From Marinifilum fragile JCM 15579 (lineage in GTDB: Bacteria; Bacteroidota; Bacteroidia; Bacteroidales; Marinifilaceae), in the NCBI RefSeq assembly GCF_001310955.1, contig NZ_BAZX01000013.1, positions 62,001 to 126,000 on the forward strand: a stretch of 64,000 nt of DNA, in the 5' to 3' direction. Under the pieces are notes generated by a model that was given only the letters and a program-made list of their open reading frames with translations, was not told the DNA's origin and ran no database searches. Every line of letters starts with the position of its first letter. The first letter of the stretch is position 1. The translations under genes and the position numbers were made by a program. This document shows positions 1,279-25,613 of the stretch, piece after piece.

Positions 1279-3807
1279 TTAATTTTCTTTCGATACAATA
1301 TCCTTAAATGTAAATTGGTATTCCTCGTTGTAGAATTTCAGATATAGTTTCCTATAGTGCTCAAATGTTTCTATTGCCAAACTGTGTTTTCCTTGCGATG
1401 CCAACAAATGACACTTTGTTTTTAGGGCAGTTTCATTCATTTGATCAAATACGAATATTACGTTGGATATAGCGAGACTAATTTTTTTGTCAAGATTTTC
1501 ATCTTTAAGAATTTCTTCCAAAGTGCTAACTATTAATCCTGTATTAAAGTCCTTGAATGAATCTAACCACTCAGGGAAGATATCTTGTAGCATTGAACCT
1601 CGCTGAAGGATGATAATGATTTCGGCTAAATTTTCAATATTACCTTGTTCTCTTATTAATTTTATAGTATTTCGCACATATTCTAAATCGCAGAATATAT
1701 TTTCAGGAAGAATTATTTTCCAATAATTATTATCAAAAACAACTTCTGTACCTGGTAAATCTTCAAGAATACTTCTCAGCTTTTTGATATTAACACCTCT
1801 GTTATTTTTTGCATTACTTTCTGATTTGTCAGGCCATAAATATTCCTGTATTCTTTTGGAAGATATTCCTTTCCCTTCATTAATTGTATTTAAAAGGATC
1901 AACAGAAATAGTTCTTTCAGAGTTGGACTAAATCTATAAGTAATATCTTTCCCTCTATTATCAAAAACCTGAAAGCCTCCGAATAAAATAATGGCATTGT
2001 GTTTGGGTGCTTGATAATCAGATATTGGGTCTTCAAATATTTCGGTAGAAGTATAATTTGTTTTGAATTCATTCTTTTTACGATCCATTCTAACTTTCCT
2101 GATAATAAATAATCCAAGAAGAATGATACAAATAACAAGAATTGAGTAAAAAATCTTAACCGAAAGAGGCAAGCCTACTCCGTTAATATCAAAATTGTCT
2201 TTATTTCCAGGTTCGTAACTTATTGTATAGATATTAACTTCATAGGTCATATCTTTTTTTCGGTGAGAGGTAACGGCAATAAGTTTATTCTCACTATTCC
2301 AGTAGTATAGATCCGCAAAAGATTCAATATCAAGAAAATTATATGGGATACTATCTCCAATAAATGCAATGCCTGGCTCGTTGATAAAACCTTTAATAGC
2401 CCTTAAATAGGTATTTTGTTTTGTTGATGGAAACATTAAAGTGTAGAAACTACTATCTGTTTCAGTAACCTTCAGGCTGTTAATTGGCAGATACTGAAAT
2501 TGTTCGTCACATTTGTAGTCCCATAAATATGTTATCTCTTGATTTTTAAAATCGATTTTATGCAAATCGTAATAAAATTCCTTTCCTAAGATTTGCTTGC
2601 CCATAGAATTTCCCAGACCGCCAAAAAGGTAGTAACAGTTTGGGTTTTTTCCAGACTGTCCTAACGAAGCAAGATACCTTGGTTTAATTGTATCTCCAGC
2701 AAACTTTAATTTATCCCAATTGTTAGTTTCAGGATTAAATGATAGGATATCATTGAAGTAAGAATAATACCCATATCCACAAATAGTTGTAATGTTTTTA
2801 GTTTGGGGATGTAACAATTTGTTGTGATGCCACAGTTTTGGAGTGTCATGCTCTGTAGACTCAATATTGTTGTTCCACGAGTTATTAACCGAATCATAAG
2901 TGGAAATCAAGTTATGGTTGAAACTGTATGTTGTTATATCTCCACTATTGTTATAAATAATTTGCTGAGCTTTTTCAAAACAAGGAAACCCATTAACCTT
3001 TTCATTTACTTTTGTTAGACTTTTGCTTAATGGATCAAAGTTCTGTATTGTTCCATTCATGAAAATGAAATTGATTTGTTCATTTTTCTTGTCGTACAAC
3101 AACGAAGGCAATGAAGAAAAATTCAAACTTTGTATTTTTTTCCACTTGTTGTGATAATCAATTACCCAATCAGGATTGTAAACTTTAGCAGTTTTACTGG
3201 AAAGAATGTCTTTAACCAAGAAATTATCTGTTTTCTTGAATGGCCATAGATGTTTAGGTGCACCATCTATTCTAATGCTTAAATCTTTTATCGAAATAGA
3301 AGGTACTTCATCAATAAAGAATCCGTATTTATTGATGACACCCAATGATAATGCAAAATCAGAATTCTGAGGAAAATTAAGATCTGATTGCAGTTTTTTG
3401 TCAGCAAATTGCAAATTAATTTTATTATTAATCGCATCTATATTTAGCTCAAAATCAACCCATCTGTTATTCTGTATTTCTTCTTCCTTCAGGTCTATAT
3501 GAAATTTGGTTTCTCGCTTATTGTATATCACAAATAAGTCTGGCATTCGATAAGTAACCTGAATTAGATTTTTATTATGAGTTTCCTTAAGAGAAAGTAT
3601 TTCACCATAATGAGTTTCAGATTCCCGAAAGGATAAATTAAAATGAATGGTAAAGTTATTGGTATAGGAAATATTGCCATTGTGTGTAATATCAATGCCA
3701 GTTCTATTTTCTTTGCTTACTTCATTAGATTTAAAATAAACTCCATGATCTGCGAACAAATCTGGAATAAATACTAACAGAAGAATTAAGAAATTAATTA
3801 ATCGCAT
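1279..3807 (-). CDS. Membrane-spanning sensor/transcription regulator (LamG-kelch-TM-winged helix)
   Basis: Candidate one-component regulator of the glycan locus. Order in the 842-residue protein: signal peptide (about 1-19), LamG/concanavalin-like domain (about 25-180, ending at a WPF motif), kelch/beta-propeller-like region (about 225-540), one transmembrane helix (about 552-570), a basic linker, an OmpR/SARP-type winged helix (about 605-700, with LKELFLLILL and IQEYLWPD), and a helical BTAD/TPR-like tail (about 705-835). The sensor half would lie in the periplasm and the DNA-binding half in the cytoplasm. It is divergent from susC across a 396-bp gap, which supports local control. There is no histidine kinase or receiver domain, so it is not a hybrid two-component system. 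The target and ligand are inference. Confidence 0.8.
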   Translation of the reverse strand: MRLINFLILLLVFIPDLFADHGVYFKSNEVSKENRTGIDITHNGNISYTNNFTIHFNLSFRESETHYGEILSLKETHNKNLIQVTYRMPDLFVIYNKRETKFHIDLKEEEIQNNRWVDFELNIDAINNKINLQFADKKLQSDLNFPQNSDFALSLGVINKYGFFIDEVPSISIKDLSIRIDGAPKHLWPFKKTDNFLVKDILSSKTAKVYNPDWVIDYHNKWKKIQSLNFSSLPSLLYDKKNEQINFIFMNGTIQNFDPLSKSLTKVNEKVNGFPCFEKAQQIIYNNSGDITTYSFNHNLISTYDSVNNSWNNNIESTEHDTPKLWHHNKLLHPQTKNITTICGYGYYSYFNDILSFNPETNNWDKLKFAGDTIKPRYLASLGQSGKNPNCYYLFGGLGNSMGKQILGKEFYYDLHKIDFKNQEITYLWDYKCDEQFQYLPINSLKVTETDSSFYTLMFPSTKQNTYLRAIKGFINEPGIAFIGDSIPYNFLDIESFADLYYWNSENKLIAVTSHRKKDMTYEVNIYTISYEPGNKDNFDINGVGLPLSVKIFYSILVICIILLGLFIIRKVRMDRKKNEFKTNYTSTEIFEDPISDYQAPKHNAIILFGGFQVFDNRGKDITYRFSPTLKELFLLILLNTINEGKGISSKRIQEYLWPDKSESNAKNNRGVNIKKLRSILEDLPGTEVVFDNNYWKIILPENIFCDLEYVRNTIKLIREQGNIENLAEIIIILQRGSMLQDIFPEWLDSFKDFNTGLIVSTLEEILKDENLDKKISLAISNVIFVFDQMNETALKTKCHLLASQGKHSLAIETFEHYRKLYLKFYNEEYQFTFKDIVSKEN

Positions 3808-4203
3808 GATTAAAAAAGAGAGAGTTGGTTAATAATTAAATATCCTTTGTGAAAATCAAAGATATTCAAATCTTATTACAGAATAAAGAAAGATGCTATA
3901 AAAAACTTGTAGAAGGCGCAATTTATATGGTTGTTTAAGGAATTCCTGCCTCTTAAATTCACATCCAATGTTCATCCTCCAGTTTAAATAATTATAAAAG
4001 CAATTCAATTCTTCAGATTTTCAAAAAACAAATCGGAATTAATGAATCTAATCTGCTGAAAACTAACTTGTAGTGCGGTGGTTAATGTATTTGATTTAGT
4101 GATTAATTCAATATTAATCGTGAATTAATACGTTTGCGCTAATATTGGCTCCAGAAAAAATCACATGATTTTGTTTTCATTGTATAATTAATATTTACTA
4201 ACT
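3808..4203. promoter_or_regulatory. Divergent intergenic region between regulator and susC
   Basis: 396 bases with no gene. It holds the candidate susC promoter and inverted repeat (listed separately). On the minus strand there is a TATCTTTG box (3857-3864), which fits the Bacteroidota TAnnTTTG element about 50 bases before the regulator start. No convincing -33 element was seen for either direction. Confidence 0.5.
4102..4136 (+). promoter_or_regulatory. Candidate susC promoter with inverted-repeat operator
   Basis: TACGTTTG at 4129-4136 matches the Bacteroidota -7 element TAnnTTTG. A perfect 9-base inverted repeat, ATTAATTCA (4102-4110) and TGAATTAAT (4121-4129), with a 10-base spacer, sits where the -33 region should be and overlaps the first base of the -7 box. 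Between the arms lies part of ATATTAATC, a word found again upstream of the third GH92 gene. An operator role is inference. Confidence 0.5.
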
Positions 4204-7200
4204 ATGAAGAAATGCTATTTAAGTAATCTTCATTCCATCTTAACTAACCCATTAAGCTTTGGAAGGAAGATTAGCAGTTTAGCTTTGCTAGTTGCAGTTT
4301 TAGGTTCGCCTTTTGCCGCAAATGCAAACGTTAACAGTTTATTTGAAGACAATTCAACCGTAGCTGTGCAGAAAACTGTGACAGGTACAGTTGTTGAAGA
4401 GTCTGGAATGTCACTGCCTGGTGTGTCTGTTGTTGTAAAAGGTACAACAGTTGGAACTGTAACTGATGTTGATGGTAAATTTCAAATTGCTGTCGATGAA
4501 TCAAGTGTATTGGTATTTAGTTTTGTTGGAATGACAACACAGGAAATTACAGTAGGTTCTCAATCTGTAATTGACGTTGTTATGGCAGCTGATGCTTTGC
4601 AGGTTGACGAAGTTGTAGTAACTGCTTTAGGTATTAAAAGAGAAAAGAAAGCTCTTGGTTATGCAGTACAGGATGTAAAGGCTGATGATTTAACTCAAAC
4701 AGGTAATGCTGACCTTGTTACTTCATTACAAGGAAAAGTTGCTGGTGTTCAAATTAGTCAATCTGGAGGAGGCGTTGGTGGTACTTCTCGTATCGATATT
4801 CGTGGGGCCAGTTCGTTGATTGGAAACGATGAACCTCTTTGGGTTGTTGATGGAGTGCCATTTGATAATGGTAACAGCCGCGATGGTAGTGTCTGGGGAG
4901 GTACTTCTCGTGCTGGTGGTGCATTCGATTTGAATCCGGAAGATATTGAATCGGTTTCTATCTTGAAAGGTCCTAATGCTGCTGCGCTTTATGGAGAACG
5001 TGGTGGTAATGGAGTTGTATTGGTTACTACTAAAAAAGGTACCAGAGGTAAAGGATTAGGTATTTCTTATTCAGGAAGCTATACTATTTCTGAAGCTGCA
5101 TATATGCTTGATTTACAAGAAAAATATGGTCAAGGTAATAATGGAGTATATGATAAGAATTCAACGGCTTCTTGGGGACCAGAAATGACAGGTCAAATGT
5201 TAGAATCTTGGACAGGGGAAACAATTCCTTACGAAGTTCAAAAAGATCGCTTGAAAGATTTTACCAGAACAGGAACAAACCAAAAACATAGCTTAGCCTT
5301 TACAGGAGGTAATGATGAAGGTTCGTATCGCGTGTCTATTGGTAAAGATATCATGAATGGCATTTATGAAGATCATAAAGTTGAAAAGTTAACATTTGAT
5401 TTAAGAGCCGATTACGATATTAATACTTGGTTAAATATTGATACAAAAGTATCTTTCTTCAATACAAAAGGTAAGGAGAGACCAGAAATTGGAAATTATA
5501 GTTATGTGTCTTATTTCAACACCATGCCAATGAATATTCGCAACCAGGATTTGGCTCCAGGTTATGAAATTCTTGGTGGTAATCACGTTGAAAAATTATA
5601 TACTACTGCAAATGCAAACTATAGAAACCCATACTTTTTGCAAGCTCAAACAACAAACAATGATGAGAAGAACAGAACCTTTGGGTATGTTGCTGCTAAC
5701 TTAAAATTGACTTCAGATTTAAAAGCCAAATTCAAATATGGTATGGATTTCTATCAATTTGAAGCGGTTGAAGGGTATATGTTTGCTGATAATGTAGATT
5801 CTAGTAGACCAAATTATAACCCATCTCAATCGAATTTTAAAGAAGAAAATTATGAGTTTTTATTGTCTTACAATAAAGAACTTAACGAAGATTTTACTAT
5901 TGGTTTAAATGTTGGAGCTAATAGTATGAAAAACAGATTCAGAGAGTTAAAAGCTACTTCTGGACATTTATCTTCTGAGAATGATTTCTTTTTAGGAGCT
6001 GGATCAAACATTAATGCTTCGGAAAGTATTGTAGAGGAAGAGGTGAGATCTTTATATGGTTTTGGTCAAGTGGCATACAAAAATATGATATTCCTTGATT
6101 TTACAGCTCGTAATGACTGGTCTTCAACACTTACTTCTTCAACCTCAGAATTTGATAATTCTTACTTCTATCCATCGGTTAGTTTAAGTGGTTTGGTATC
6201 TGATATGATTGATATGCCAGAATGGGTGTCATTTGCTAAGATTAGAGGTTCATGGGCAAAAGTAGGTAAGGCTACTGATCCTTTGTTAACTGCACAAACC
6301 TATTCTATTGGTAACTGGAACTATGGTCAATCAACAGGTAATGTACCAGAGAATGGTGTACAAAATAACTTAAAGCCAGAATTATCAACTTCATATGAAA
6401 TTGGTGCTGATTTAAGATTCTTGAATAATCGTGTAGGAGTAGATTTTACATACTACAATGAAAGAACTAAAAACCAAATTCTTCTTGTACCAGCGGTACA
6501 AAGTTCAGGATTTAAGAATATTCTTTCTAATGCTGGTTTAATTGTGAACAAAGGGGTTGAGTTAATGTTGACAACCGTACCTGTTAAAACAAATGATTTA
6601 ACCGTTGGCTTGAACTTTAATTTTGCTAAAAATGAAGGGATAATGGAGGAATTAACCAAAGATGTTCCAAGATATCCTTTTGATATGTCAGTATACGCCT
6701 ATCCAGGTCAAAAGCTTGGTCAGATTGTTGGTAGTGTTTATGATCGCGATGAAAATGGTGAAATTATTATCGATAACAATGGTTTGATGACTCTTGCACA
6801 GGAGGATGAGATTATTGGTAACCTTCAGCCTGACTGGACAGGGTCTATTAATTTAAATGTTGATTATAAAGGTCTTTATTTATCTGCTTTAGTTTCGATT
6901 CAGCAAGGTGGAGACATTCTTTCATCTTCAGAACAAGGAGCTGTAAGTGCTGGTACTGCTAAACGAACACTTGCAAATAACCGTATGGCTTTCTTCGCTG
7001 ATGGAGTTTCAGTTGATGGCGGCCCTAATAATGTTATTATATCAGCAGAGGAATACTGGAGACAATTGTCAAAGGTAGATGAAGAATTTATGTACGACGC
7101 CTCGCATATGAAGCTAAAAGAATTGGCAATCGGATATAATATTCCAAAATCGATTTTGAGTAAAATCCCTCACAATCCTGTAAAATCAGCAAGAGTTGCA

Positions 7201-7356
7201 TTAGTAGGTAGAAATCTTTTCTATTTCTATAAAGATACTCCAGGTACAGCTCCTGATGCAAGTGCTTTTAGTACTCTTTACCAAGCACAAGCATATGATT
7301 TTTCTCCAGTTCCTTCAACCAGAACATATGGGTTCTCGATTAATGTTGGATTTTAA
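4204..7356 (+). CDS. SusC/RagA-family TonB-dependent outer-membrane glycan transporter
   Basis: Outer-membrane beta-barrel that imports glycan fragments with its SusD partner using TonB energy. Seen in sequence: signal peptide ending near AANA; a carboxypeptidase-D-like N-terminal domain with the typical TGTVVEESGMSLPGVSV pattern and DVDGKFQI; the TonB-box/plug region beginning about EVVVTALGIKREKKALGYA; the SusC motif RGASSLIGNDEPLWVVDGVP; and a long barrel ending in aromatic-terminated strands (FSINVGF). At 1050 residues it has the family's usual length. The SusD gene starts 18 bases after its stop. It is first in the PUL operon, behind a TAnnTTTG promoter box. Confidence 0.97.
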   Translation: MKKCYLSNLHSILTNPLSFGRKISSLALLVAVLGSPFAANANVNSLFEDNSTVAVQKTVTGTVVEESGMSLPGVSVVVKGTTVGTVTDVDGKFQIAVDESSVLVFSFVGMTTQEITVGSQSVIDVVMAADALQVDEVVVTALGIKREKKALGYAVQDVKADDLTQTGNADLVTSLQGKVAGVQISQSGGGVGGTSRIDIRGASSLIGNDEPLWVVDGVPFDNGNSRDGSVWGGTSRAGGAFDLNPEDIESVSILKGPNAAALYGERGGNGVVLVTTKKGTRGKGLGISYSGSYTISEAAYMLDLQEKYGQGNNGVYDKNSTASWGPEMTGQMLESWTGETIPYEVQKDRLKDFTRTGTNQKHSLAFTGGNDEGSYRVSIGKDIMNGIYEDHKVEKLTFDLRADYDINTWLNIDTKVSFFNTKGKERPEIGNYSYVSYFNTMPMNIRNQDLAPGYEILGGNHVEKLYTTANANYRNPYFLQAQTTNNDEKNRTFGYVAANLKLTSDLKAKFKYGMDFYQFEAVEGYMFADNVDSSRPNYNPSQSNFKEENYEFLLSYNKELNEDFTIGLNVGANSMKNRFRELKATSGHLSSENDFFLGAGSNINASESIVEEEVRSLYGFGQVAYKNMIFLDFTARNDWSSTLTSSTSEFDNSYFYPSVSLSGLVSDMIDMPEWVSFAKIRGSWAKVGKATDPLLTAQTYSIGNWNYGQSTGNVPENGVQNNLKPELSTSYEIGADLRFLNNRVGVDFTYYNERTKNQILLVPAVQSSGFKNILSNAGLIVNKGVELMLTTVPVKTNDLTVGLNFNFAKNEGIMEELTKDVPRYPFDMSVYAYPGQKLGQIVGSVYDRDENGEIIIDNNGLMTLAQEDEIIGNLQPDWTGSINLNVDYKGLYLSALVSIQQGGDILSSSEQGAVSAGTAKRTLANNRMAFFADGVSVDGGPNNVIISAEEYWRQLSKVDEEFMYDASHMKLKELAIGYNIPKSILSKIPHNPVKSARVALVGRNLFYFYKDTPGTAPDASAFSTLYQAQAYDFSPVPSTRTYGFSINVGF

Positions 7357-7374
7357 TTGATAAAGAAATTTGTT

Positions 7375-8933
7375 ATGAAAAAAATTAATATAATATTATT
7401 CGCATTAGGGCTAATCATGTTGGGCAGTAGTTGTTCTGATGATTTTGATGACTTAAATGTCCCTTCGGATGCGACAACTTCAGTTGAACCGAAGTTCTTC
7501 TTTAGTCCTTTAGTTCAGGCTGTTTTTGATAACTACCAGCGTAATGTAAACTTATATCCTGATTTGTATTCACAGTATTGGGCGAATACAGTTAGTGGTT
7601 TTGGTTCACCACGCTATGAGTATGTAGATGGTTGGATTGGAAACCAATGGAGTGAGCACTATACAAAAGATTTACGTAGAGCGAATTCAATTCAAGATTT
7701 ATTTGGAGAAGACCCTTCATACGTTGATGCGATTGCAATCAAAGAAATTTGGATGTGTTATTGGTGGTCTAGAATTACTGATACATACGGTGATGTTCCT
7801 TATTTTGATGCAAGTAGCGGCGAGGCTGTTCCTTATAATAATCAAAAGGATATTTACTACGATCTATTTGCAAGATTGAATACAGCAATTAATGCAATTA
7901 CTGGTAATGCAGATCAATACACATATAATGATGGGTATGACCTAATTTATGATGGTGATGCAATGCAATGGCAAAAGTTTGGTAATTCATTGCGTTTAAG
8001 ATTAGCAATGCGTATTTCAAATGTTGATCCAACAAAAGCGCAATCTGAAGCTCAAGCTGCTGTTTCTGGTCCAGGTGGTCTTTTAGCAAGCAATGATGAT
8101 GTTGCAAGAGTTGGAATGTGGAGCCAAGGATGGTACGACTATTTGCATCAAATGGCTTGGAATTGGAATAACATTCGCATGTCAAAAACCATGTCTGATA
8201 ATCTTTACAATCAATCAACTGCAGGAGAGGATCCTCGTACCCCAAGATGGTTTGCTTACCAGGTAGAAGGAAAACCAACAAGCAAAGAGGATGCAGGATT
8301 TGACCGTTATTACGGAATCGAGAATGGTTATAACCTTGTTCCTTCAGATGCAGACGAAAACTTTGCGACAATTAACCTGGAAGGTGGATATATTGACTTC
8401 GTTGGAAATGGTACTGATGATAAAATGTATTGTCCTGTAATGTTCTATTCTGAAGTACTTTTCTTGCAAGCTGAAGCTGCAATGAGAGGCTGGATTGCAG
8501 GTGATGCAAATGCATTGTACCTAGAAGGAGTTCAGGCTTCAATGGATTATGTAGGGGTTGATCCAACTGCAGCAGCTGATTATATAGCTGGTTTACCAGC
8601 CTATCAGGTGCAAATGAAGCCTCATTAAAGCAATTGATTACACAAAAATGGGTAGCAAATTTCCCAAATGGTGTTGAAGGTTGGGCCGATTTTCGTAGAA
8701 CGGATTATCCTGATATTACTCTTCCAAAGGATGGTGTAAGTGGTAGTGCAACCGTGGCACCTGGAACTTGGGTGAAGCGTGTTAGATATCCAATTAATGA
8801 GCACTTGCAAAACAGTGAGAATATGCCAGCTACTCAAAATACTCCAGAAACAGATAGAATGGATATCAAAGTTTGGTGGGATACTGCTGACACTAAAACT
8901 AAAACAAGTGGTTTAATGAGTAGTAATTTTTAA
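7375..8933 (+). CDS. SusD/RagB-like surface glycan-binding lipoprotein (frameshifted)
   Basis: Surface lipoprotein that lids the SusC barrel and binds glycan. The signal ends in the lipobox LGSSC. I prefer the ATG at 7375 over an upstream in-frame TTG. The body shows the SusD-like helical pattern (KEIWMCYWWSRITDTYGDVPY, EVLFLQAEAAMRG). The first frame stops at 8628, and the C-terminus (LITQKWVANFPNGVEGWADFRR, then PINE) continues in another frame to 8933. Adding one G at the GG of 8607-8608 gives Y-Q-G-A-N-E-A-S-L-K-Q-L and restores a 519-residue protein of normal length. Sequencing error is the simplest reason, though real inactivation is not excluded. Confidence 0.9.
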
Positions 8934-8953: not shown

Positions 8954-10813
8954 ATGAAAGCAATAAAATTAAATATAAAATCGTGGTCTTTCCTAGCTGC
9001 CTTTTTGATGGTATTTACCTTCACAGCTTGTGATGATGACGATAATAAAGGAGGCAACTTCAATACTGCTTCTATAGAGACATTAATTACCGAAGCTGAA
9101 ACTCTAATCGAGACTACAGAGGAAGGAATTAATGCAGGTGATCAAAAACCAGGTTCAAAAGCTGAGTTACAATCTGTAATTGACTGGGTGCGCTGGAAAA
9201 TAGAAAATGCAGAAAATCAGGAGGATATTTCTGATGCAGCTGTGAAATTACAGCGCTACATCGATATATTTAAAGCAAATATTGTTGCTGTTGCAATGCC
9301 ATGGATTCAGCAAGAAAATGAAACCTGGATACAAATTTCGGATAATATCAAACCGATATTTAAGGAAAGTTTTACCATTGAAACTCAGATTTATGTTGTT
9401 GACTTGAACCAAAAAGGTTATTCAAATAATATTTTCGCAACTGAGCAAGATGGTCCTGATAGTGGTTTTGTAATCAGATACTTTAATGACGGAGTTATTC
9501 ATCTTAACGTAGGTACAGCTGATGGTTGGAGAGATGTTAAGACTGATCCTGGTGTAATGAAATCAGGTGAATGGATGCAAATTGCATTTGTTAACGAAAT
9601 TACAAGTCAAAAACTATATGTAAATGGGGTTGAAGTGTTGTCACAAACACAAACTTATTTGCCAGGTGCTGACAAGAGCTTTGTTATTGGTAATGGACCA
9701 ACCTGGACAGACCGTGTTGTGAATGCTGTAGTTAAAGATGTTAGAGTTTGGAAAGGTGCTCGTACTGATTCAGAAATTGCTGATAATAAAACAGCTACTT
9801 TAACTGGAACCGAGGCTAATCTTGAAATGTTTTTACCATTAAGCGCTGATTTAGGTTCTGAATTTAAAGATGTTACTGGTAATTATACTGCAAAATTTCA
9901 GGGAAAAATAGAATGGGTTGCGGAACCACCAGTGATTGTTTTAGACAAAACAAAACTTGAAGCTGCCATTGTTGAAATTACAGAATTTAAAGCTGAAGTG
10001 GTAGAAGGTGATCAGGATGGTGATTATCCTGTTGGAACTATTGCTTACATTGATGAGTTAATTGCAGATGCTAATGAAGCGCTTGCTAAAGAAGGTCGTC
10101 AAACTGCATTGGATGAAAAGGCTGAAGGTTTACAAAGTGCAATTAAACTGATAAATTCTATGTTGGTAGCTGATACTGATGGTATTCTAGTTGATAGAGA
10201 CGTACCTTCTGCTATTGGATTAAGAATTACACCAAATTATACCCCACAAGGTGATTATACTGTTGAGTTTAATGTTAAAGTAAAATCATTGTTTGGTTAT
10301 GGAACAGGTGAATTCTTCAACAATGGAGAATATGGAGTTTGGGTATATGGATATGATGAATTGACTGAAGAGAATGTCCTTAAATCAGGTGGTTTGTGGA
10401 ATTTCACAAATGCTGGAAACGGATGGCAAGGTCCTAAGACAGATCCTTTGGTTATGAAAACAGGAGAGTGGCAACATGTTGCTCTTGTTCATGATGATAC
10501 TGCTCGTACTACCAAAATCTTTGTTGATGGTGTTGAAAAAGCCGTATTTGAAGACATAGGTGCTCCTAATGTATCTGGATGGGGTGAAATGTGGCTAGGT
10601 AATGGCTGGGGTAAAATGGATGGCTACATCAAAGACTTCCGTTTATGGGATGTTGCTCGCGATGCAGCTGATCTTGATTCAGAAATTACTGGTACTGAAA
10701 CAGGTTTGAATGTTTACTTACCACTTAATAGAGTTAAAGGCGTGAAGTTTACTGATGAAACTGGAAATTACAAAGCACATATGAGAGGAATCTCATGGAA
10801 TGTTGTTGAATAA
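8954..10813 (+). CDS. SusE/F-position surface glycan-binding lipoprotein with duplicated FIVAR-LamG units
   Basis: Third gene of the operon, 20 bases after susD. The lipobox FTAC puts the mature Cys at about residue 26, followed by an acidic DDDDN stretch typical of surface-exported lipoproteins. The protein is an internal duplication: a helical FIVAR-like segment (about 38-108), a LamG/concanavalin-like domain (about 110-320), a second FIVAR-like segment (about 330-405) and a second LamG domain (about 410-619). Both LamG units keep the same GWRDVKTDPGVMKSGEW / GWQGPKTDPLVMKTGEW core. It probably binds glycan at the surface beside SusCD. Ligand unknown; no catalytic motif seen. Confidence 0.85.
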   Translation: MKAIKLNIKSWSFLAAFLMVFTFTACDDDDNKGGNFNTASIETLITEAETLIETTEEGINAGDQKPGSKAELQSVIDWVRWKIENAENQEDISDAAVKLQRYIDIFKANIVAVAMPWIQQENETWIQISDNIKPIFKESFTIETQIYVVDLNQKGYSNNIFATEQDGPDSGFVIRYFNDGVIHLNVGTADGWRDVKTDPGVMKSGEWMQIAFVNEITSQKLYVNGVEVLSQTQTYLPGADKSFVIGNGPTWTDRVVNAVVKDVRVWKGARTDSEIADNKTATLTGTEANLEMFLPLSADLGSEFKDVTGNYTAKFQGKIEWVAEPPVIVLDKTKLEAAIVEITEFKAEVVEGDQDGDYPVGTIAYIDELIADANEALAKEGRQTALDEKAEGLQSAIKLINSMLVADTDGILVDRDVPSAIGLRITPNYTPQGDYTVEFNVKVKSLFGYGTGEFFNNGEYGVWVYGYDELTEENVLKSGGLWNFTNAGNGWQGPKTDPLVMKTGEWQHVALVHDDTARTTKIFVDGVEKAVFEDIGAPNVSGWGEMWLGNGWGKMDGYIKDFRLWDVARDAADLDSEITGTETGLNVYLPLNRVKGVKFTDETGNYKAHMRGISWNVVE

Positions 10814-11030: not shown

Positions 11031-13307
11031 ATGCAAAAATTTAAATCAATCAAAACACTAGGATTGTCATTGTTGTTGGGTGCATTCGCATCCTGCCAGC
11101 TAACTGATGGTAAGACAAATGATGATAGTTTAACTCAATATGTCGACCCATATATTGGATCAGGTGGACATGGTCATGTGTTTGTTGGAGCCAGTGTACC
11201 TTTTGGGGCAATTCAGGCTGGACCTAGCAATTTTCATAAAGGATGGGATTGGTGTTCATCTTATCACTATTCAGATAGTATTATTAAGGGATTTTCACAT
11301 CTGCATTTGAGCGGAACAGGTTGTACCGATTTGGGTGAGTTTTTAATTATGCCAGCTGTTGGTGAATTGAAAATAAATCCAGGTTCTCAAGAAAATCCAG
11401 AAGAAGGTTATGCTTCCTATTACAGTCATGATACTGAAAAAGCCGAAGCTGGTTATTATAAAGTGTTTTTGGATACCTATAATGTAGGTGTTGAAATGAC
11501 AACTACCGAAAGGGTTGCCATGCATCAAATTACCTATCCAAAATCAGAACAATCCAGATTGATTATTGATTTAAAAGAAGGTAATGGAGATCAGGCAACA
11601 GAAACTTTCTTTCATAAGGTAAATGATACAATTGTGGCAGGCTATCGCTTTTCAAAAGGTTGGGCTGCAGATCAACGTGAGTATTTTGCAATGGTTTTGT
11701 CAAAGCCAATAAAAGATATCGTGGTTTATGATGCAGATGAAAAATTAAAGGGAGATGCAGGAAAAGGGAAAGCTATCAAAGCCTTTCTTAATTTTTCCAC
11801 AGAGTCTTTTGAGAAACTTCAGGTGAAGTTTGGAATGTCTCCAGTTAGTATGGAAAATGCTTTGCTAAATATCAAAACAGAAATGCCAAATTGGAATTTC
11901 AATGAGATTCTTGCCGCGAACAAAGCCAAATGGAACAAAGAACTTGAAAAAATTCATATTGAGACTCAAAGTGAGAAGGATAAAAGAGTATTCTATACTG
12001 CTATGTATCATACACTAATTGCTCCTAACATTTTCGATGATGTGAATGGTGATTACAGAGGAACCGATAAAAAGGTTTACAACAATACCAACAGTACCAA
12101 TTACACTTTATTCTCATTATGGGATACTTATAGAACTGCTCATCCATTGTATACAATTACACAACAGGAAAGGGTACCCGATATGATCAATTCTATGCTT
12201 GAAATTTACAAGCATCAGGGTAAGCTCCCAATTTGGCATTTGAGAGGAAACGAAACCAATACAATGGTTGGATATAGTGCAGTGCCTGTGGTTGTGGATG
12301 CTTGCCTTAAAGGTTTTACTGGTTTTGATATCAATTTGGCATATGAAGCTGTAAAAACTACAGCAATGGGTGATTTTGAACCAGGAGTTAAAGAATTACA
12401 GAAGTATGGATACATTCCTTGCGATATGATGCACGAATCTGTTGCAAGAGCCATGGAATATGCGATTAGCGATTGGGGAATTGCCCAGTTGGCGAAAAAA
12501 TTAGGTAAGCATGAAGATGCTAAGTATTTTACAGAACGAGCTAAAGCTTACCAAAAATATTTCGATCCAAATGACAAATTCATGAAAGGTAGAATGAAAG
12601 ATGGTAGCTGGAGAACTCCATTCGATCCTGTATCAGCTCAGCACAGAGTAAATGATTACTGTGAAGGAAATGCATGGCAATACCTTTGGTTAGTTCCTCA
12701 AGATCCGGAAGGACTAATTCAATTGTTTGGTGGGGATAAACCATTTCTAACAAAACTAGACAGCTTATTCTCTATTTCTTCAGACTTGGAAGAAGGAGCT
12801 TCTGCGGATATTACTGGATTAATTGGACAATATGCTCACGGGAATGAACCAAGCCATCACATAACCTATTTGTATGCATTTGCAGGAGAACAGTATAAAA
12901 CTGCTGATAAAGTAGATTATATCCTTAACGAATTGTATACCGATAAGCCTGATGGATTATGTGGTAATGAAGACTGTGGTCAAATGTCAGCTTGGTACGT
13001 AATGTCGTCGATGGGTTTTTATCCAGTAAATCCTTCTAATGGTGCTTATGTATTCGGTAGACCTTTATTTGATAAAGTAAGCATTAATCTAAGTGCAGAC
13101 AAATCATTTACCATTCTTGCCAATAACAATAGTAAGGAGAATATGTATATCCAGTCGGTGAAATTAAATGGCCAGGATTATACCAAGTCATTCATTACTC
13201 ATAAAGACATCATGAATGGTGGTGAGTTGGTGTTTGAAATGGGGCCAAAACCAAATAAAGAATTTGGTTCTAAAATGAAGGATAGACCGAAATCAGTTGT
13301 ATACTAA
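11031..13307 (+). CDS. GH92 alpha-mannosidase lipoprotein (first copy)
   Basis: Calcium-dependent inverting exo-alpha-mannosidase that removes terminal mannose from N-glycans or mannan. Lipobox FASC. The GH92 start is clear (YVDPYIGSGGHGHVFVGASVPFG). Other family marks are SHLHLSGTGC, LFSLWDTYRTAHPL, HESVARAMEYAISDW (the Glu at about 469 is the likely acid), HGNEPSHH, and GNEDCGQMSAW at about 645-655 (base region). 758 residues, normal and unbroken. Of the three GH92 genes here it is the only intact one. The HGNEPSHH motif is the form seen in alpha-1,2-mannosidases as I recall, but linkage should be treated as unproven. Confidence 0.95.
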   Translation: MQKFKSIKTLGLSLLLGAFASCQLTDGKTNDDSLTQYVDPYIGSGGHGHVFVGASVPFGAIQAGPSNFHKGWDWCSSYHYSDSIIKGFSHLHLSGTGCTDLGEFLIMPAVGELKINPGSQENPEEGYASYYSHDTEKAEAGYYKVFLDTYNVGVEMTTTERVAMHQITYPKSEQSRLIIDLKEGNGDQATETFFHKVNDTIVAGYRFSKGWAADQREYFAMVLSKPIKDIVVYDADEKLKGDAGKGKAIKAFLNFSTESFEKLQVKFGMSPVSMENALLNIKTEMPNWNFNEILAANKAKWNKELEKIHIETQSEKDKRVFYTAMYHTLIAPNIFDDVNGDYRGTDKKVYNNTNSTNYTLFSLWDTYRTAHPLYTITQQERVPDMINSMLEIYKHQGKLPIWHLRGNETNTMVGYSAVPVVVDACLKGFTGFDINLAYEAVKTTAMGDFEPGVKELQKYGYIPCDMMHESVARAMEYAISDWGIAQLAKKLGKHEDAKYFTERAKAYQKYFDPNDKFMKGRMKDGSWRTPFDPVSAQHRVNDYCEGNAWQYLWLVPQDPEGLIQLFGGDKPFLTKLDSLFSISSDLEEGASADITGLIGQYAHGNEPSHHITYLYAFAGEQYKTADKVDYILNELYTDKPDGLCGNEDCGQMSAWYVMSSMGFYPVNPSNGAYVFGRPLFDKVSINLSADKSFTILANNNSKENMYIQSVKLNGQDYTKSFITHKDIMNGGELVFEMGPKPNKEFGSKMKDRPKSVVY

Positions 13308-13388
13308 GGAATCAAGAAAATTATTGAATTGATTTTAATTGAAGAAAACAGTTGTATCACTTGTTGATTTAACTACTAAAAGATAAAA

Positions 13389-15684
13389 ATGAAGAGAGCA
13401 AATATTCTATTAATTCTGATAGCATTTTTGGCATCGTGTGTGGGTGAAAAAGAGGCGATAAAATCCAATAAAATTTCCAGTGTAGACATGGTGAATCCGT
13501 TAATGGGAACAGATTCTGAACATGCACTTTCCAACGGAAATACTTATCCTGCCATTGCAGTACCCTGGGGAATGAATTTTTGGACACCGCAAACCGGTAA
13601 AATGGGTGATGGTTGGACTTATGCTTACGATGCAAAGAAAATTAGAGGTATTAAACAGACACATCAACCTAGTCCATGGATTAATGATTATGCAGCTTTT
13701 TCATTCATGGCTGTTACAGGAGATTTAAAGTTTAAGGAAGATGAGCGTGCTTCTTGGTTTTCGCATAAAGCTGAGGATGCTAAACCATATGCTTACGAAG
13801 TTTATTTGGCCGACTATGATGTAAAAGCTGAAGTAAGCCCAACGGAACGCGCTGCTATCTTTCGATTTACATTTCCAGAAAATGAGAACTCATACATTTT
13901 GCTAGATGCATACAATGAAGGTTCGGAGGTGAAAATTATTCCTGAAGAAAGAAAGATTGTAGGATATTGTCGTAACAATAGTGGCGGTGTGCCAGATAAT
14001 TTTCATAACTATTTTGTCGCTGAATTCGATAAGGATTTTGAAATTGTTCATACCTGGAATGGCGACAAATTAAAATCAGGATCAAAAGCTGCTTCTGGCG
14101 ATCATGTTGGTGCGGTTATTGGATTTAAAACTAAAAAGGGTGAAGAGGTCCACGTAAAAGTGGCATCTTCGTTCATTAGTAAAGAGCAAGCTCAATTGAA
14201 TTTATCGAGAGAAATTGGGAATAAAAACTTTAATCAGGTTAAAGAAGAAGCAAAACATGCTTGGGAAAAGGAATTTGCTAGGATTAAAGTAGAAGGAGGA
14301 ACAGATGACCAATTGAAAACATTCTATTCCTGTCTTTATAGAGTGTTATTATTCCCAAGAAAATTTTATGAGTACAACGAAAAAAATGAAATAGTTCATT
14401 ACAGTCCTTATAATGGTGAAATACTGCCTGGCTATATGTTTACAGATAATGGCTTGGGATACATTCCGGGCAGTATTTCCATTTTTTACAGTAATGTATC
14501 CAGACCTGAACGCTCAAATTATGGAAGGATTGGTTAATACTTACAAAGAGAGTGGATGGTTACCAGAATGGGCAAGTCCTGGACACCGAGGTTGTATGAT
14601 TGGGTCCAATTCCGCATCCCTTATTTCGGATGCTTATTTAAAAGGGATTCGTGGTTATGATATTGAGACTTTGTATGAGGCAATTGTCAAGAATACAAAC
14701 GGATATAACAAAGAGATTACCTCAGTGGGTAGATATGGTGCAGAATACTATAATAAATTGGGATATGTGCCTTATAATATTGGTATTCATGAAAATACTG
14801 CAAGAACATTAGAATATGCTTATGCTGATTTTTGTGTTTGGAAATTGGCACAGGAACTAGGTCGTCCGCAGGAAGAAATCGATCTTTTTGCCCAAAGAGC
14901 TCAGAATTTTAAGAATGTATTTGACAAGGAATCTGGACTAATGCGAGGTAAAAATGAAGATGGCACCTTCCAGACACCGTTTAATCCTTTAAAATGGGGT
15001 GATGCATTTACCGAAGGAAACAGCTTGCATTATACATGGTCTGTTTTCCAGGATATTAATGGTTTGGTTAATTTGATGGGTGGAAAAGAACAGTTTATTT
15101 CTACTTTGGACGGAGTATTTGAAATGCCTCCAAAATTTGATGATTCCTATTATGGATTTACCATCCACGAAATTCGTGAAATGCAAATTGTAAATATGGG
15201 AAACTATGCTCATGGGAATCAACCTATTCAGCATATGATTTACTTGTATAATTTTGTGGGGCAACCATGGAAATCCCAGGCAAGAGTTCGTGAAGTGATG
15301 GACAAATTGTATACTCCTCAAGCTGACGGTTATTGCGGTGATGAAGATAATGGACAAACTTCTGCATGGTACGTGTTTAGTTCCATGGGATTCTATCCGG
15401 TATGTCCGGGAACTGACGAATATGTTTTTGGATCGCCACTATTTGATAAAGTGACCTTGACATTGGAGAATGGAAATACCTTTACTATTTCGAGTTCAAA
15501 CAATTCAAAAGAAAATGTATTTATTAATGATATTAGTTTAAATGGAAAACAGCACAATTTGAACTATATCAAGCACTCAGACATTCAAAAAGGAGGAGAG
15601 CTTAGATTTGATATGTCTGCTCAACCTAATAAAGAGCGAGGAGTACTTCAAGAAAGTTATCCATACTCAATGAGTACTAAATAA
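13389..15684 (+). CDS. GH92 alpha-mannosidase lipoprotein (second copy, frameshifted)
   Basis: Second exo-alpha-mannosidase, with lipobox LASC. The N-terminal part runs in one frame to about 14453 (VNPLMGTDSEHALSNGNTYPA, FYSCLYRVLLFP). The C-terminal part is in another frame from about 14456 (WDTFRAVFPFFTVMYPDL, IHENTARTLEYAYAD, HGNQPIQH, GDEDNGQTSAWYVFSSMGFYP). Two missing bases (or one extra) at GGCTTGGG, 14451-14458, would restore the expected DNG-F-WDTFRA. Restored length is about 765 residues. It differs from the first copy at HGNQPIQH (Gln for Glu) and carries DEDNGQ, so a different linkage or a capped mannose is possible. A terminator follows. Confidence 0.92.
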
Positions 15685-15723
15685 GAATGTAGTATTAGAA
15701 TAGTATTCTGATATAGTTAGTTT

Positions 15724-15758
15724 AAAAAGCTCATTGATTATTCTTTGAGCTTTTTTTT
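15724..15758 (+). terminator. Rho-independent terminator
   Basis: AAAAAGCTCA (15724-15733) pairs with TGAGCTTTTT (15746-15755), followed by more T. It separates the second GH92 from the GH125 gene, implying a new transcript or partial read-through. Confidence 0.8.
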
Positions 15759-15798
15759 GAACATTTAGAACTATTATAGCCAACATAACTCAACCCAA

Positions 15799-17225
15799 AT
15801 GAAAAGAAGAACCTTTTTAAGAAACTCACTACTATTTACAGGAGGTTTAAGCCTGGTAGGCACAAAAGGATTTGCCATTAGTAAGGATTTAAAATACATA
15901 TCGAATAGGCCTGAAGCGAACAAAAGAAATTTTGTGAGTAAAGCTGTAGATAACAAGATAAGGGAAGTGAAAAAAGCCATTGCCAATGAGGAACTGGCCT
16001 GGATGTTTGAGAATTGCTTTCCCAATACTTTGGATACTACCGTAACTTATTCTGAAGAGAATGGCAAACCAGATTCTTTCGTAATTACTGGGGATATTCA
16101 TGCAATGTGGTTAAGAGATTCTACAGCTCAAGTGTGGCCATATTTGCCTTTAGTAAATGATGATGATCAACTCCAGAAATTGTTCCAGGGACTGATTAAT
16201 CGACAAAGCAATTGTATCAATATCGATCCGTATGCCAATGCGTTTAACAAAGGGGCAGAAGGTTCACATTGGGAGAGTGATTTAACGGATATGAAGCCCG
16301 AGCTGCATGAACGAAAGTGGGAAATCGATTCACTCTGCTATGCCATCAGACTGGCCTATCATTATTGGAAGAAAACGGGTGATACATCATGCTTCGATTC
16401 AGATTGGGTGAATGCCATGAAGTTGGTGGTGAAAACTTTTAAAGAGCAGCAGAGAAAAGAGAATCAAGGACCATACAGATTTGCAAGAAATACGAGTAAA
16501 CCAACCGATACATTACCAGGCAATGGTTATGGAAATCCTATCAAACCGGTTGGATTGATTGTTTCTTCGTTCCGACCATCGGACGACGCTACCATTCTGC
16601 CATTTTTAATTCCTTCCAACTATTTTGCAGTGGTATCATTAAAACAGTTGAATGAGATTTTGAACCACCTGAATATAGAAAAAGAGCTAGCAGATTCGGC
16701 ATTGGAGATGGCGAAGGAAGTGGAATTGGCACTTGAAAACTATGCAAGTTCGAATCATTTAAATAAAGGGGAAACATTAGCATTTGAAGTGGACGGTTTC
16801 GGAAACCAGATGCATATGGATGATGCAAATATTCCTAGTTTGCTATCTCTTCCATATCTGGGTGCATTGGATGCCAAATCATCCCTTTACCAGAATACAA
16901 GAATGTTTATTTTAAGTGACAATAATCCTTGGTTTTTCAAAGGAGAATATGGCGAAGGAATTGGAGGCCTCATGTTGGTGTAAATATGATTTGGCCAATG
17001 AGTATCATTATGCGAGCTATGACTTCCGATAAGGACATGGAGATAATAAATTGCGTGAAAACTTTAATGAGAACGCATGCGGATACAGGATTTATGCATG
17101 AAACTTTTCACAAAGATGATCCTATGAATTTTACAAGATCGTGGTTTGCATGGGCCAATACTTTGTTTGGTGAGTTGATATTAAAAATCTACAATGAGAG
17201 GCCACATTTATTAAAGCAGGTGTAA
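15799..17225 (+). CDS. GH125 exo-alpha-1,6-mannosidase (frameshifted)
   Basis: GH125 enzymes remove alpha-1,6-mannose from mannan or N-glycan after GH92 trimming. Visible: an N-terminus with a twin Arg (KRRTFLRN) and hydrophobic core, DIHAMWLRDSTAQVWPYLPL, DPYANAFN, HERKWEIDSLCYAIRLAYHYW, GLIVSSFRPSDDATILPFLIPSN, and, after a frame change, GVNMIWPMSIIMRAMTS and MHETFHKDDPMNFTRSWFAWANTLFGELI. The first frame stops at 16983. One missing base in GGAGGCCTC (16963-16970) restores EGIGGPHVGVN and a 475-residue protein. The late Glu in MHETF fits the position of the family's catalytic base. The GH65 ATG follows after one base, so the two are cotranscribed. Confidence 0.93.
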
Positions 17226-17226
17226 T

Positions 17227-19262
17227 ATGATTTCCTATTTCAATAAAATTAGGCTGCTATTTGGCTGTGTACTTTTTGTATTCAGTTCGATGGCTCAAAA
17301 ACAAGAAGGAGATGAATGGAATATTGTAGCCAAGGATTACTCTAGTTATGCTGGGATCTCTGTAGCTAATGGTCGTATTGGAATTGTGCCATCGGAGCAG
17401 CCGGGTAAAACAAAATCCATCATTCTAAATCATGTTTTCGATAAGGAATCAGAAAATGGTGTGAGCAAAGTATTATTGGGAATTAATTTTGCCAATTTGG
17501 AAATTGTGATTCATGGAGACACGCTAAGCACCAAAAACTGTAGCAGATGGAAGCAGGTTTTGAATATGAAAGAGGCCGCTTTTATTACTTCTTGTAGGTA
17601 TAGAGAAGACGTGGACTTTACTTTTACATATTATGCCTTACGAGGCATGCCTTACAGTGGAATGATAGATGTGAAAGTTACCCCTTTAAAGGACAATATA
17701 AAGATGCAGGTAGCAGGACAGATTATTTGTCCTGCAGAGTATAAAAATGTTGATTCCGCCTACAGGGTTATGAAAGATTTGGACGCCAGAATGCCTGTAT
17801 TACAAACTATTGCAGATAGTCCTTTCGGAAAACACCAATTGGCTACAACTGCTTCCTTTATTTTTCAAGATAAAACACCAGATTTAAGGCACCAAGTTTG
17901 TGATTCGCTCCATCACGAATTGGTTTTTGATAAGAACTTGAATAGAGGTGAAAATTACCAGTTTGCATGGACAGGTGCAGTTTGTACTTCCCGGGATTTT
18001 TCAGATCCAAAGAGTGAATCGGAGCGATTGGTGATCTATCAGCTATTGGGTAATAAACAAGTAGTGATTGATCGTCACAAGAAGCTTTGGAATGATTTAT
18101 GGCAAGGCGATATTGTAATAGAAGGAGATTTGGAATCTCAACAGGATGTTCGTTTGGCACTGTATCATTTGTATTCTTTTGCTAGAGATGATTCTAATTT
18201 AAGCATTGCACCTATGGGTTTATCTTCCCAGGGATATAATGGACATGTCTTTTGGGATACTGAACTTTGGATGTATCCACCCATTCTTGTTTTCAATCAA
18301 GCCATAGCAAAATCATTGTTGAACTATCGATTTGATCGATTGGAACCAGCAAAAATAAAGGCTCAAAATTATGGTTTTGATGGTGCAATGTTTCCATGGG
18401 AATCCGATGATACAGGGGAGGAAGCTACTCCAACCTGGGCTTTAACAGGAACTTTCGAACATCATATTACTGCAGATATTGGGATTGCTTTTTGGAATTA
18501 CTATCGCATAACTGGAGATAAACAATGGCTGGCTTCCAAAGGATATCCTTTGTTGAAAGAGGTGGCGGATTTCTGGGTGAGCCGAGCAGTGAAAAATAAT
18601 GATGGATCCTATTCAATCAATAATGTGGTTGGTGCGAATGAATTTTATCATCATGCCAATGATAACGCTTTTACCAATGGCTCTGTAAAAACTGTTTTGA
18701 CTTTTGCAGAAAAAGCTGCAGGCCGTTTGGGAATAATACCAAATTCTATGTGGAGTGAAGTGGCTGATGGGTTGATGTTTTATTATACCAAAGATGGGGT
18801 GACAAAGGAGAACCGAGAATACAAAGGCGAAATCATTAAACAGGCTGATGTTAATCTATTGGCTTATCCGTTGGAAATTGTAACAGATCTTAAAGCCATT
18901 CGAAAAGATTTGGAATATTATGAGCACAAAATGGCCCCTGAAGGACCGGCAATGTCTCATTCAATACTATCTGTACTTTATTCACGAATGGGAGAAGCAG
19001 AAAAGGCTTATGAATTGTTCAAGAGAGCTTATGTACCCAATAAAAGAAAACCATTTGGGGCTTTATCAGAATCGGCATATAGCAACAATCCCTACTTTGC
19101 AACAGGAGCTGGGGGAATGCTACAGGCCGTGATCTTTGGATTTGGAGGATTACACCTAACAGACAAAGGAATAGAGCAAAAAAATCCATGCTTGCCGAAG
19201 CAATGGAAAAGATTAACAATTAAAGCGTCGGTCCTGATTTTAAAATATTTGAGGTTAAATAG
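17227..19262 (+). CDS. GH65-family alpha-glucosidase or alpha-glucoside phosphorylase (C-terminal frameshift)
   Basis: GH65 members cleave alpha-glucosides by hydrolysis or phosphorolysis. A signal peptide (ending FSSMAQ) makes this one exported; known phosphorylases are cytosolic, so hydrolysis is favoured. Family marks: GYNGHVFWDTELWMYPP, NNVVGANEFYHHANDNAFTN (the Glu at about 472 is the likely acid), KQADVNLLAYP, and the C-terminal sandwich LPKQWKRLTIK. As read, the end is out of frame and runs to a stop at 19272, overlapping GH97. One missing G at 19225 gives IKGVGPDFKIFEVK and a stop at 19260-19262, 6 bases before the GH97 ATG, for 678 residues. Exact substrate unknown. Confidence 0.88.
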
Positions 19263-19268
19263 AACGTT

Positions 19269-21275: not shown

Positions 21276-21310
21276 TTTACCTTTTGATTTGATTAATGAT
21301 TCATCTGTAC

Positions 21311-21358
21311 GATTAATCTATATATTAATCATCATTTAATCTGGAAAAGCTTAATTTG
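21311..21358 (+). promoter_or_regulatory. Candidate operator/promoter upstream of the third GH92 gene
   Basis: Contains the palindrome GATTAATC (21311-21318) and ATATTAATC (21322-21330) followed 3 bases later by ATTTAAT. The second word and its follower resemble the segment overlapping the susC promoter repeat. TTAATTTG (21351-21358) is a one-mismatch -7 box. Regulation by the same factor as susC is inference. Confidence 0.4.
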
Positions 21359-21381
21359 AACCAAAGATTAGAAATTAGTGA

Positions 21382-21430
21382 ACCGATCGGGAAGTGCTTG
21401 GCTAGCCATAATCCCGTTCGGTATTATTTT
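21382..21430 (+). terminator. Hairpin with T-run between GH97 and the third GH92 gene
   Basis: ACCGATCGGGA (21382-21392) pairs with TCCCGTTCGGT (21412-21422) with one mismatch. An inner palindrome TGGCTAGCCA sits in the loop and ATTATTTTT follows. It can terminate the GH97 transcript. If the promoter lies at about 21330-21360, it would instead be in the leader of the GH92 gene. Confidence 0.7.
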
Positions 21431-21460
21431 TAAACTCACGATTACAATAAAACCTAAATA

Positions 21461-23700: not shown

Positions 23701-23719
23701 AAAAACTAAATAGAATATA

Positions 23720-25600: not shown

Positions 25601-25613
25601 TACTAAAATCAAA

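Follow-up and report, generated by a model that had tools for sequence, protein, structure and literature searches.

The window analysed here, a 64,000-nucleotide stretch of the Marinifilum fragile JCM 15579 genome, encodes an 842-residue regulator (1279-3807, minus strand) next to a polysaccharide utilization locus (PUL). We consider it quite likely that this protein is a membrane-anchored, one-component transcription activator, predicted to respond to a ligand and to switch on the divergent susCD-GH92-GH125 genes (GH, glycoside hydrolase) by binding TTAA(T) repeats spaced by 11 bp. The domain order and the topology signal of the protein point in this direction, as do the model fold of its C-terminal part, which resembles the Streptomyces antibiotic regulatory proteins (SARPs), a conserved repeat array upstream of susC, the preferred phase of such repeats to the -10 element at other loci, and their enrichment beside genes of the same family.

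We also think it more likely than not that the family forms a class of nutrient-locus regulators not yet described in Bacteroidota. Its members would be single-pass transmembrane SARPs with interchangeable exported sensors (N-terminal domain plus kelch propeller, N-terminal domain alone, or one or more LamG domains), present in up to six copies per genome. Each of them is predicted to read local 11-bp TTAA arrays in front of nearby operons (SusC, GH92, GH125 and others), in phase with their -10.

Gene and order of domains

The regulator gene is a real open reading frame (ORF); the plus-strand reading of the same stretch is full of stops. It is divergent from susC, which starts at 4204, and a gap of 396 bp (3808-4203) lies between the two. 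The full frame was kept in nine Marinifilum/Labilibaculum contigs, with 57-91% identity to the window regulator, the closest relative being a protein of M. breve (91%). Nearly full-length relatives with 25-31% identity were found in other families of the order. As far as found, the regulator is single-copy in its own genome, which is 94% complete.

The chain begins with a signal peptide (residues ~1-19, 3751-3807), its second-highest hydropathy window. An N-terminal beta domain (residues 21-213, 3169-3747) and a kelch beta-propeller (residues 214-533, 2209-3168) follow, and then a transmembrane helix (residues 551-569, 2101-2157) with a basic linker behind it. The C-terminal part consists of a winged helix similar to Trans_reg_C (residues ~602-700, 1708-2004) and a BTAD-like helical domain (residues ~705-838, 1294-1695), all on the minus strand. 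These assignments were based on the ORF and its relatives, Pfam matches, hydropathy, an AlphaFold2 (AF2) model and structural alignments. An earlier note, made from the sequence alone, had described a single chain that joins an exported propeller to a SARP-like DNA-binding part beside a PUL, and the ORF, the models and the topology all agree with it.

Fold of the C-terminal part

The AF2 model of residues 601-840 had a predicted local distance difference test (pLDDT) score of about 80; the rest of that model was poor. The winged-helix part contained helices at residues 628-644, 650-657 and 663-681 and strands at residues 688-692 and 695-699. In a Foldseek search, AfsR (8k60, 8hvr) and EmbR led the matches of the C-terminal part with E-values of 1.0e-5 to 1.5e-5, although propeller chains matching the other half of the protein reached similar E-values. 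The top four rows of VIA-align were again AfsR and EmbR (Z 13.3, 13.2, 12.2 and 11.9), aligned over 228-233 residues with a root-mean-square deviation (rmsd) of 4.9-5.1, and they were followed by propeller rows for the other half at Z 8.2 and below. The best AfsR alignment (Z 13.3, rmsd 5.0, 228 residues) and that of EmbR (Z 12.2, rmsd 4.9, 231 residues) have to be read with the warning of the alignment tool that, for helical folds, a Z under ~13 can reflect a mere common arrangement. The model thus folds as the earlier note had proposed, into a winged helix with a BTAD-like tail.

The search against the Trans_reg_C and BTAD profiles that had been suggested as a check gave matches, but in the window protein they stayed below the cut-offs (Trans_reg_C: E 0.016, 15.7 bits, cut-off 26.2). 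At E-values up to 1, BTAD was matched by four of 15 C-terminal member sequences (best E 0.0068), and one close member, L170, passed the curated BTAD cut-off (24.3 vs 22.1). The C-terminal profile also caught nine distant homologues with E-values above 1e-30. The four of these that were scanned are canonical BTAD proteins (BTAD E 5e-23, 3.7e-25 in a protein with AAA, 1.2e-12 and 2.4e-12), two of them with AAA and TPR. We file the window regulator as SARP-like, without curated SARP membership.

Putative exported sensor and membrane topology

The best 19-residue hydropathy window of the regulator is at residues 551-569, where the earlier note had placed its one helix (about 552-570), and the corresponding AF2 helix spans residues 548-578. 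One lysine or arginine is found in the 15 residues before this helix and seven in the 15 residues after it, and the positive-inside rule therefore predicts that the C-terminus is inside. The opposite topology, with the C-terminal part outside, had been named as a reason to abandon the regulator proposal, and the prediction does not favour it. In 65 of 70 members, a stretch whose hydrophobicity exceeds the threshold precedes the SARP part, with more lysine and arginine after than before it; the other five are exceptions.

The kelch Pfam model matched all 18 aligned members, with the window protein remaining below the curated cut-off (35.2 vs 50 bits). Structurally, the propeller aligned to the LZTR1 kelch domain (Z 18.8, 267 residues, rmsd 3.7). 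Of the LamG plus propeller sensor proposed earlier, the propeller is the part with support. At E-values up to 1, the full set of Pfam matches of the window protein contains no LamG, and none is among 25 of the 28 Pfam families matched across 18 members. Profile-profile comparison of the N-terminal domain with true LamG domains (hhalign) gave a probability of 12% (P 0.0023), and a PDB profile search with the same domain gave no match up to E 10. In a second model the domain was beta-rich, with middling to low confidence, and the top Foldseek match of the periplasmic part was the NanB sialidase, at a low TM-score of 0.25. A lectin- or LamG-like identity of the modelled domain is unproven.

Candidate operator upstream of susC

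The gap between the regulator gene and susC contains a conserved TTAAT array, which, judging from its sequence, is the likely operator. Three plus-strand repeats (4103-4107, 4114-4118 and 4125-4129) are placed 37, 26 and 15 bp before the proposed susC -10, TAATATTG (4140-4147), and belong to a conserved block. This -10 has one mismatch to TAnnTTTG and the same phase to the repeats as at other sites. A further TTAAT (4082-4086), conserved in the relatives, lies 58 bp before the -10 and 21 bp before the next repeat. In the nine relatives, 44 of the 46 columns of 4102-4147 were invariant, compared to 33 of 272 at 3808-4079; the leader (4148-4203) was conserved too, with 42 of 56 columns invariant. 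When the gap was shuffled 5000 times with dinucleotides preserved, three TTAAT at 11 bp never arose. The 4.7-Mb genome contains the exact triple once, beside the regulator gene.

A perfect TACGTTTG at 4129-4136 is an alternative -10, and it was first favoured and then put second. We prefer TAATATTG at 4140 because TTAA is elsewhere commonest 15, 26/27 and 38 bp before the -10. With regard to the control of the locus inferred in the earlier note, a candidate operator was found in 3808-4203, the gap that the note had singled out for a footprint; the control itself is a sequence-based prediction.

TTAA arrays at other member loci

The repeat derived from the window was counted in the intergenic DNA of 69 member loci. 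The window itself was excluded, and different spacings and AT 4-mers served as internal controls. There were 114 TTAA pairs with a spacing of exactly 11 bp, compared to a mean of 28.1 for other spacings; the 40 control loci had 25 such pairs. Three-repeat arrays with 11/12-bp steps were present in 25 of the 69 member loci and in three of the 40 controls (Fisher P 5.7e-4). Spacings of 12, 22 and 23 bp were also raised in member loci, which is expected of arrays built from 11- or 12-bp steps. From zero to four genes away from the member, the density of 11-bp pairs was 15.9, 10.8, 8.1, 6.6 and 5.2 per 10 kb, with 2.9 in the controls.

The repeats also showed a preferred phase to the -10. A TTAA placed 15, 16, 26, 27, 37 or 38 bp before an exact TAnnTTTG was counted 67 times at 254 motifs in member loci and 25 times at 250 motifs in controls. 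At 15, 26/27 and 38 bp, the counts were 17, 9+13 and 12 in member loci, against 6, 4+2 and 2 in controls. In-phase sites were present in 21 of 70 member loci, with 28 rows in total (two of them from the window, one per -10), and in three of 40 control loci. They precede SusC in eight loci, and there are 19 other targets. The ten of these that were scanned include GH92 (three), GH125, GH43, MocA oxidoreductase, GxGYxYP hydrolase, esterase-like, CotH and DUF4988 proteins.

In 393 genomes, the exact pattern of three repeats with a phased -10 was found at 36 sites in 30 genomes, compared to two sites for the reversed pattern. Fourteen of the 36 sites are in genomes with a member, nine of them within 10 kb of it (at most 0.98 Mb of DNA) and five in all the rest. 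In an earlier run of the full pattern, all five exact hits were within 10 kb of a member. This nearness is partly circular, because the full pattern was refined partly on member loci, which is not the case for the test with the window-derived repeat.

Proposed mechanism and its alternatives

In the mechanism that we propose, the exported beta domain and the kelch propeller most likely sense a mannan-derived oligosaccharide, or its carrier protein, in the periplasm. The signal would pass, by a change in conformation or oligomeric state, through the one transmembrane helix to the cytoplasmic SARP-type domain (winged helix plus BTAD). This domain would bind directly to the TTAA(T) direct repeats, which are one helical turn (11 bp) apart and just upstream of the susC -10. 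Once bound, it would replace the -35 contact and activate the divergent susCD-GH92-GH125 genes. Ligand-controlled activation of susC by a tethered SARP domain is proposed because the geometry is that of SARP sites, combined with a Bacteroidota -10, and we infer activation rather than repression.

Several results weigh against this mechanism. The C-terminus of the window protein passes no Pfam or NCBIfam cut-off. At the window locus, the site does not fit the exact three-repeat pattern used in the scan, and the array is not in phase with the perfect TACGTTTG at 4129. With one mismatch allowed, the TTAAT triple of the window is no commoner in its genome than the reverse of this triple (16 vs 13). 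SusD and two GH92 genes carry frame changes, so that the locus may be non-functional in this strain or the assembly faulty there. Across the family, the array of three was present in fewer than half of the member loci, the looser test for any pair was weak (42 of 69 vs 16 of 40, P 0.028), and TAAC at 12 bp outranked TTAA at 11 bp by ratio. Pair density did not fall smoothly with distance: five genes away it was 14.1 per 10 kb, from 7 pairs, and then 3.2 and 3.3. The comparisons were made with 40 control regions placed at round coordinates in seven genomes. Neither GH125 nor SusD-like proteins of the window's type were enriched, each being present in three of 70 member loci and one of 40 controls. 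Five of the 14 exact sites in member genomes were not within 10 kb of a known member. Finally, 22 of the 36 exact sites are located in 21 genomes (e.g. G077, G110, G601, G780 and G743) that yielded no member at E 1e-5 when every candidate was scored.

The sites in these 21 genomes indicate that other regulators seem to use similar sites, likely regulators of the OmpR/PhoB type, and exclusivity of the motif to the family was rejected on this result. OmpR-type regulators bind TTAA-like 11-bp direct repeats. At seven exact sites away from known members (L236-L242), neither a member (E 1e-3) nor a SusC (E 1e-10) was found. The repeats of the window could then belong to another regulator, for example a cytoplasmic OmpR/PhoB-type response regulator, and the membrane protein could act elsewhere or together with it. 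This alternative survives best, and we still consider it unlikely. The density of TTAA pairs peaks next to the family gene, and around nine weak homologues of the canonical SARP kind such pairs were not in excess (3 at 11 bp in 17.7 kb). The distribution of exact sites within member genomes, nine near a member and five elsewhere, argues in the same direction, with the circularity mentioned above. Furthermore, no response regulator was found among the Pfam-scanned genes of the window PUL.

A second alternative keeps the regulator at these sites with the opposite effect. Because the repeats abut the promoter, a bound protein could block the polymerase, and the regulator would be a repressor that covers the core promoter until a ligand releases it. 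Sites that keep a preferred phase to the -10 and take the place of the -35 region are however typical of activators, and SARPs usually activate, according to the cited part of PMC10972967. Repression thus appears improbable.

We find it just as improbable that the regulator is a membrane-anchored precursor, from which proteolysis would free the SARP domain to diffuse to its sites. A low-confidence linker (pLDDT under 50 at residues 574-597) does join the helix and the DNA-binding domain, which is consistent with such a precursor. On the other hand, an exact triple found once in the genome, beside the gene, fits a tethered local regulator, a weak argument given that a freed domain could act there too. 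That AT-rich DNA, in which TTAA is common, and the shared ancestry of the nine aligned gap sequences, all from close relatives, gave the array by coincidence, with the C-terminal domain doing something else, is very improbable in view of the window-excluded test, which covered other genera and had other spacings and AT 4-mers as controls.

Distribution and sensors of the family

Searches recovered members of the family of this putative membrane-anchored activator from 25 of the 56 genomes of the taxonomic family (E 1e-10), from at least 29 of 393 genomes of the order (E 1e-10) and from at least 23 of 395 genomes of the phylum (E 1e-5), 12 of the latter with only weak matches of the canonical kind. 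The order- and phylum-wide tallies are lower bounds, because up to six candidates per genome were scored in these profile searches. The highest copy number was at least six per genome (G649).

Among 73 members with an E-value below 1e-30, a few of them cut by contig ends, 48 had both the N-terminal domain and the propeller, eight the N-terminal domain only, two the propeller only and 15 neither. A true Laminin_G_3 was present ahead of the helix-SARP chassis in L120 (G143:C5), L175 (G807:C1) and L163 (G768:C28). Together with the constant helix signal, these architectures indicate that the sensors vary on a constant helix-SARP chassis, and the three Laminin_G_3 members are good entry points for work on sensors and their ligands.

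Short members of 480-582 residues, without a propeller match, were found at loci L119 and L166-L170. In G166:C15 and G761:C5, one in-frame TAA lies within the match to the C-terminal profile and may be merely the end of the gene.

Neighbouring genes of family members

The survey of neighbours covered 75 members. Among them were the window and two close relatives of it, L005 and L006; L001-L004, L007-L009 and the duplicates L164 and L165 were left out. For the controls, 77 of 80 listed neighbouring genes were scanned. SusC lay within one gene for 14 of the 75 members, compared to none of 40 control genes; at up to three genes, the counts rose to 23 and four. When SusC or SusD within three genes was counted, the numbers were 24 of 75 and six of 40; SusD within one gene was found for no member and for two of the 40 controls. 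Among the nine close relatives, SusC adjoins the regulator gene in eight, and the ninth, L007, stops at a contig edge. For 52 of the 75 members no SusC was found within three genes, a number that includes contigs ending early and SusC genes possibly missed by the in-house profile. Homologues away from SusCD loci had been named in the earlier note as a result that would count against it, and the answer was mixed: SusC is enriched beside members, but for most members none was found within three genes. SusC adjacency was consequently rejected as a defining feature of the family.

GH92 was present in 17 of 70 member loci and one of 40 controls (P 0.0017). The TonB plug was matched by six of 69 upstream and seven of 72 downstream neighbours, compared to two of 77 control genes. 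Plain sulfatases were not enriched (three of 69 upstream and two of 72 downstream neighbours vs three of 77 control genes). FGE-sulfatase-like and NapC/NirT matches were found in five of 72 downstream neighbours each. Other members adjoin GH92, GH43, FGE-sulfatase-like, NapC/NirT and further genes, a mixture which suggests that the family serves nutrient loci of several kinds. With FGE-sulfatase and NapC/NirT among the downstream neighbours, its reach may extend beyond glycans.

The PUL of the window

All PUL genes described here are on the plus strand. A ROK-family protein of the sugar kinase or regulator type (21-1160; PF00480, E 3.6e-21) precedes the regulator gene. On its other side, the predicted target is a SusC/RagA TonB-dependent transporter (4204-7356; TIGR04056, E 3.7e-201) with Plug and CarbopepD_reg_2 domains. 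The SusD-like gene (7357-8628; PF12771) changes frame near 8595-8601 and continues in another frame to 8930. In six relatives it has one frame of 519-529 residues; M. flexuosum DSM 21950, which also carries the TTAAT array, has a one-frame SusD. The frame change in the window (8595-8930 region) reflects either a sequencing or assembly error or decay. A protein with two stretches of Laminin_G_3 (8954-10813, by Pfam) lies between SusD and GH92.

The catabolic part (11031-26582), as annotated by Pfam and NCBIfam, comprises three GH92, GH125, a GH65 of the kojibiose-hydrolase type, GH97, an SSF transporter and GH130. Of the three GH92 genes, two are broken up, each into a pair of overlapping frames (13389-15684 and 21461-23700). 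Counting SusD, three genes of this one PUL carry frame changes. From the GH activities, we take the gene content of this PUL, including the ROK and SSF proteins, to point to alpha-mannan or related mannose glycans. A 181-residue ORF further downstream (26655-27200) had no family match.

Comparison with known regulators

Membrane regulators of the CadC/ToxR type unite a winged helix of the OmpR type, a single membrane helix and a periplasmic part in the same chain, with the winged helix at the cytoplasmic N-terminus. In the window regulator, by contrast, a signal peptide comes first, and the winged helix is C-terminal, accompanied by a BTAD-like domain, with the C-terminus predicted inside.

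Three switches are usually named for Bacteroides PULs in the cited part of PMC3878776: SusR, hybrid two-component systems (HTCS), and pairs of extracytoplasmic function (ECF) sigma and anti-sigma factors. HTCS such as BT4663 resemble the window regulator in having an exported sensor and a DNA-binding domain in one chain, encoded beside PULs (PMC3878776, cited part). They differ from it by their kinase, receiver and AraC domains, none of which was in the Pfam list of the window protein at E-values up to 1 or among 25 of the 28 Pfam families matched across 18 members. ECF sigma/FecR-type anti-sigma pairs also control SusCD loci through the envelope, as stated in the same part of PMC3878776. In the window locus, however, no sigma or anti-sigma (FecR-like) protein was found among the scanned genes of 21-26582, and the Pfam list of SusC contains no signalling (STN) domain.

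SusR (BT3705), as described in the cited part of PMC3878776, is like the window regulator a single-chain membrane protein with a periplasmic sensor and a cytoplasmic DNA-binding part, and controls the neighbouring sus locus. The repeats predicted for SusR have a distance of 67 or 77 bp (PMC3878776), compared to 11 bp at the window locus. The DNA-binding part of SusR is described there as having no significant similarity to other known ones.

No described Bacteroidota SARP/kelch membrane regulator was found in the literature searched, which covered few subscription journals. BTAD genes beside contractile injection loci, as reported in the cited part of PMC8213781, represent a different setting.

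The closest parallels are the SARPs themselves. Their sites, according to the cited part of PMC10972967, are heptameric direct repeats that cover the -35 region; the classical unit is 11 bp, and some sites have three repeats. AfsR and EmbR share with the window regulator the winged helix and BTAD fold, 11-bp direct repeats close upstream of the -10, and the control, predicted for the window regulator, of a neighbouring cluster. The SARP unit of AfsR is N-terminal in the cited part of PMC1262709, whereas that of the window regulator is C-terminal, behind a transmembrane helix and an exported sensor. The window regulator further differs from SARPs in the TTAA core of its repeats, in the Bacteroidota -10, and in the association of its family with glycan and other nutrient loci.

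If our reading is right, the regulator adds another envelope-to-promoter switch to SusR, HTCS and ECF/anti-sigma pairs. With a recognisable chassis and a readable DNA address, TTAA arrays phased to the -10, the targets of family members would be predictable from sequence. SARPs are known from actinobacterial antibiotic clusters, and their DNA-binding design would then be found in another phylum, as the output part of a transmembrane sensor.

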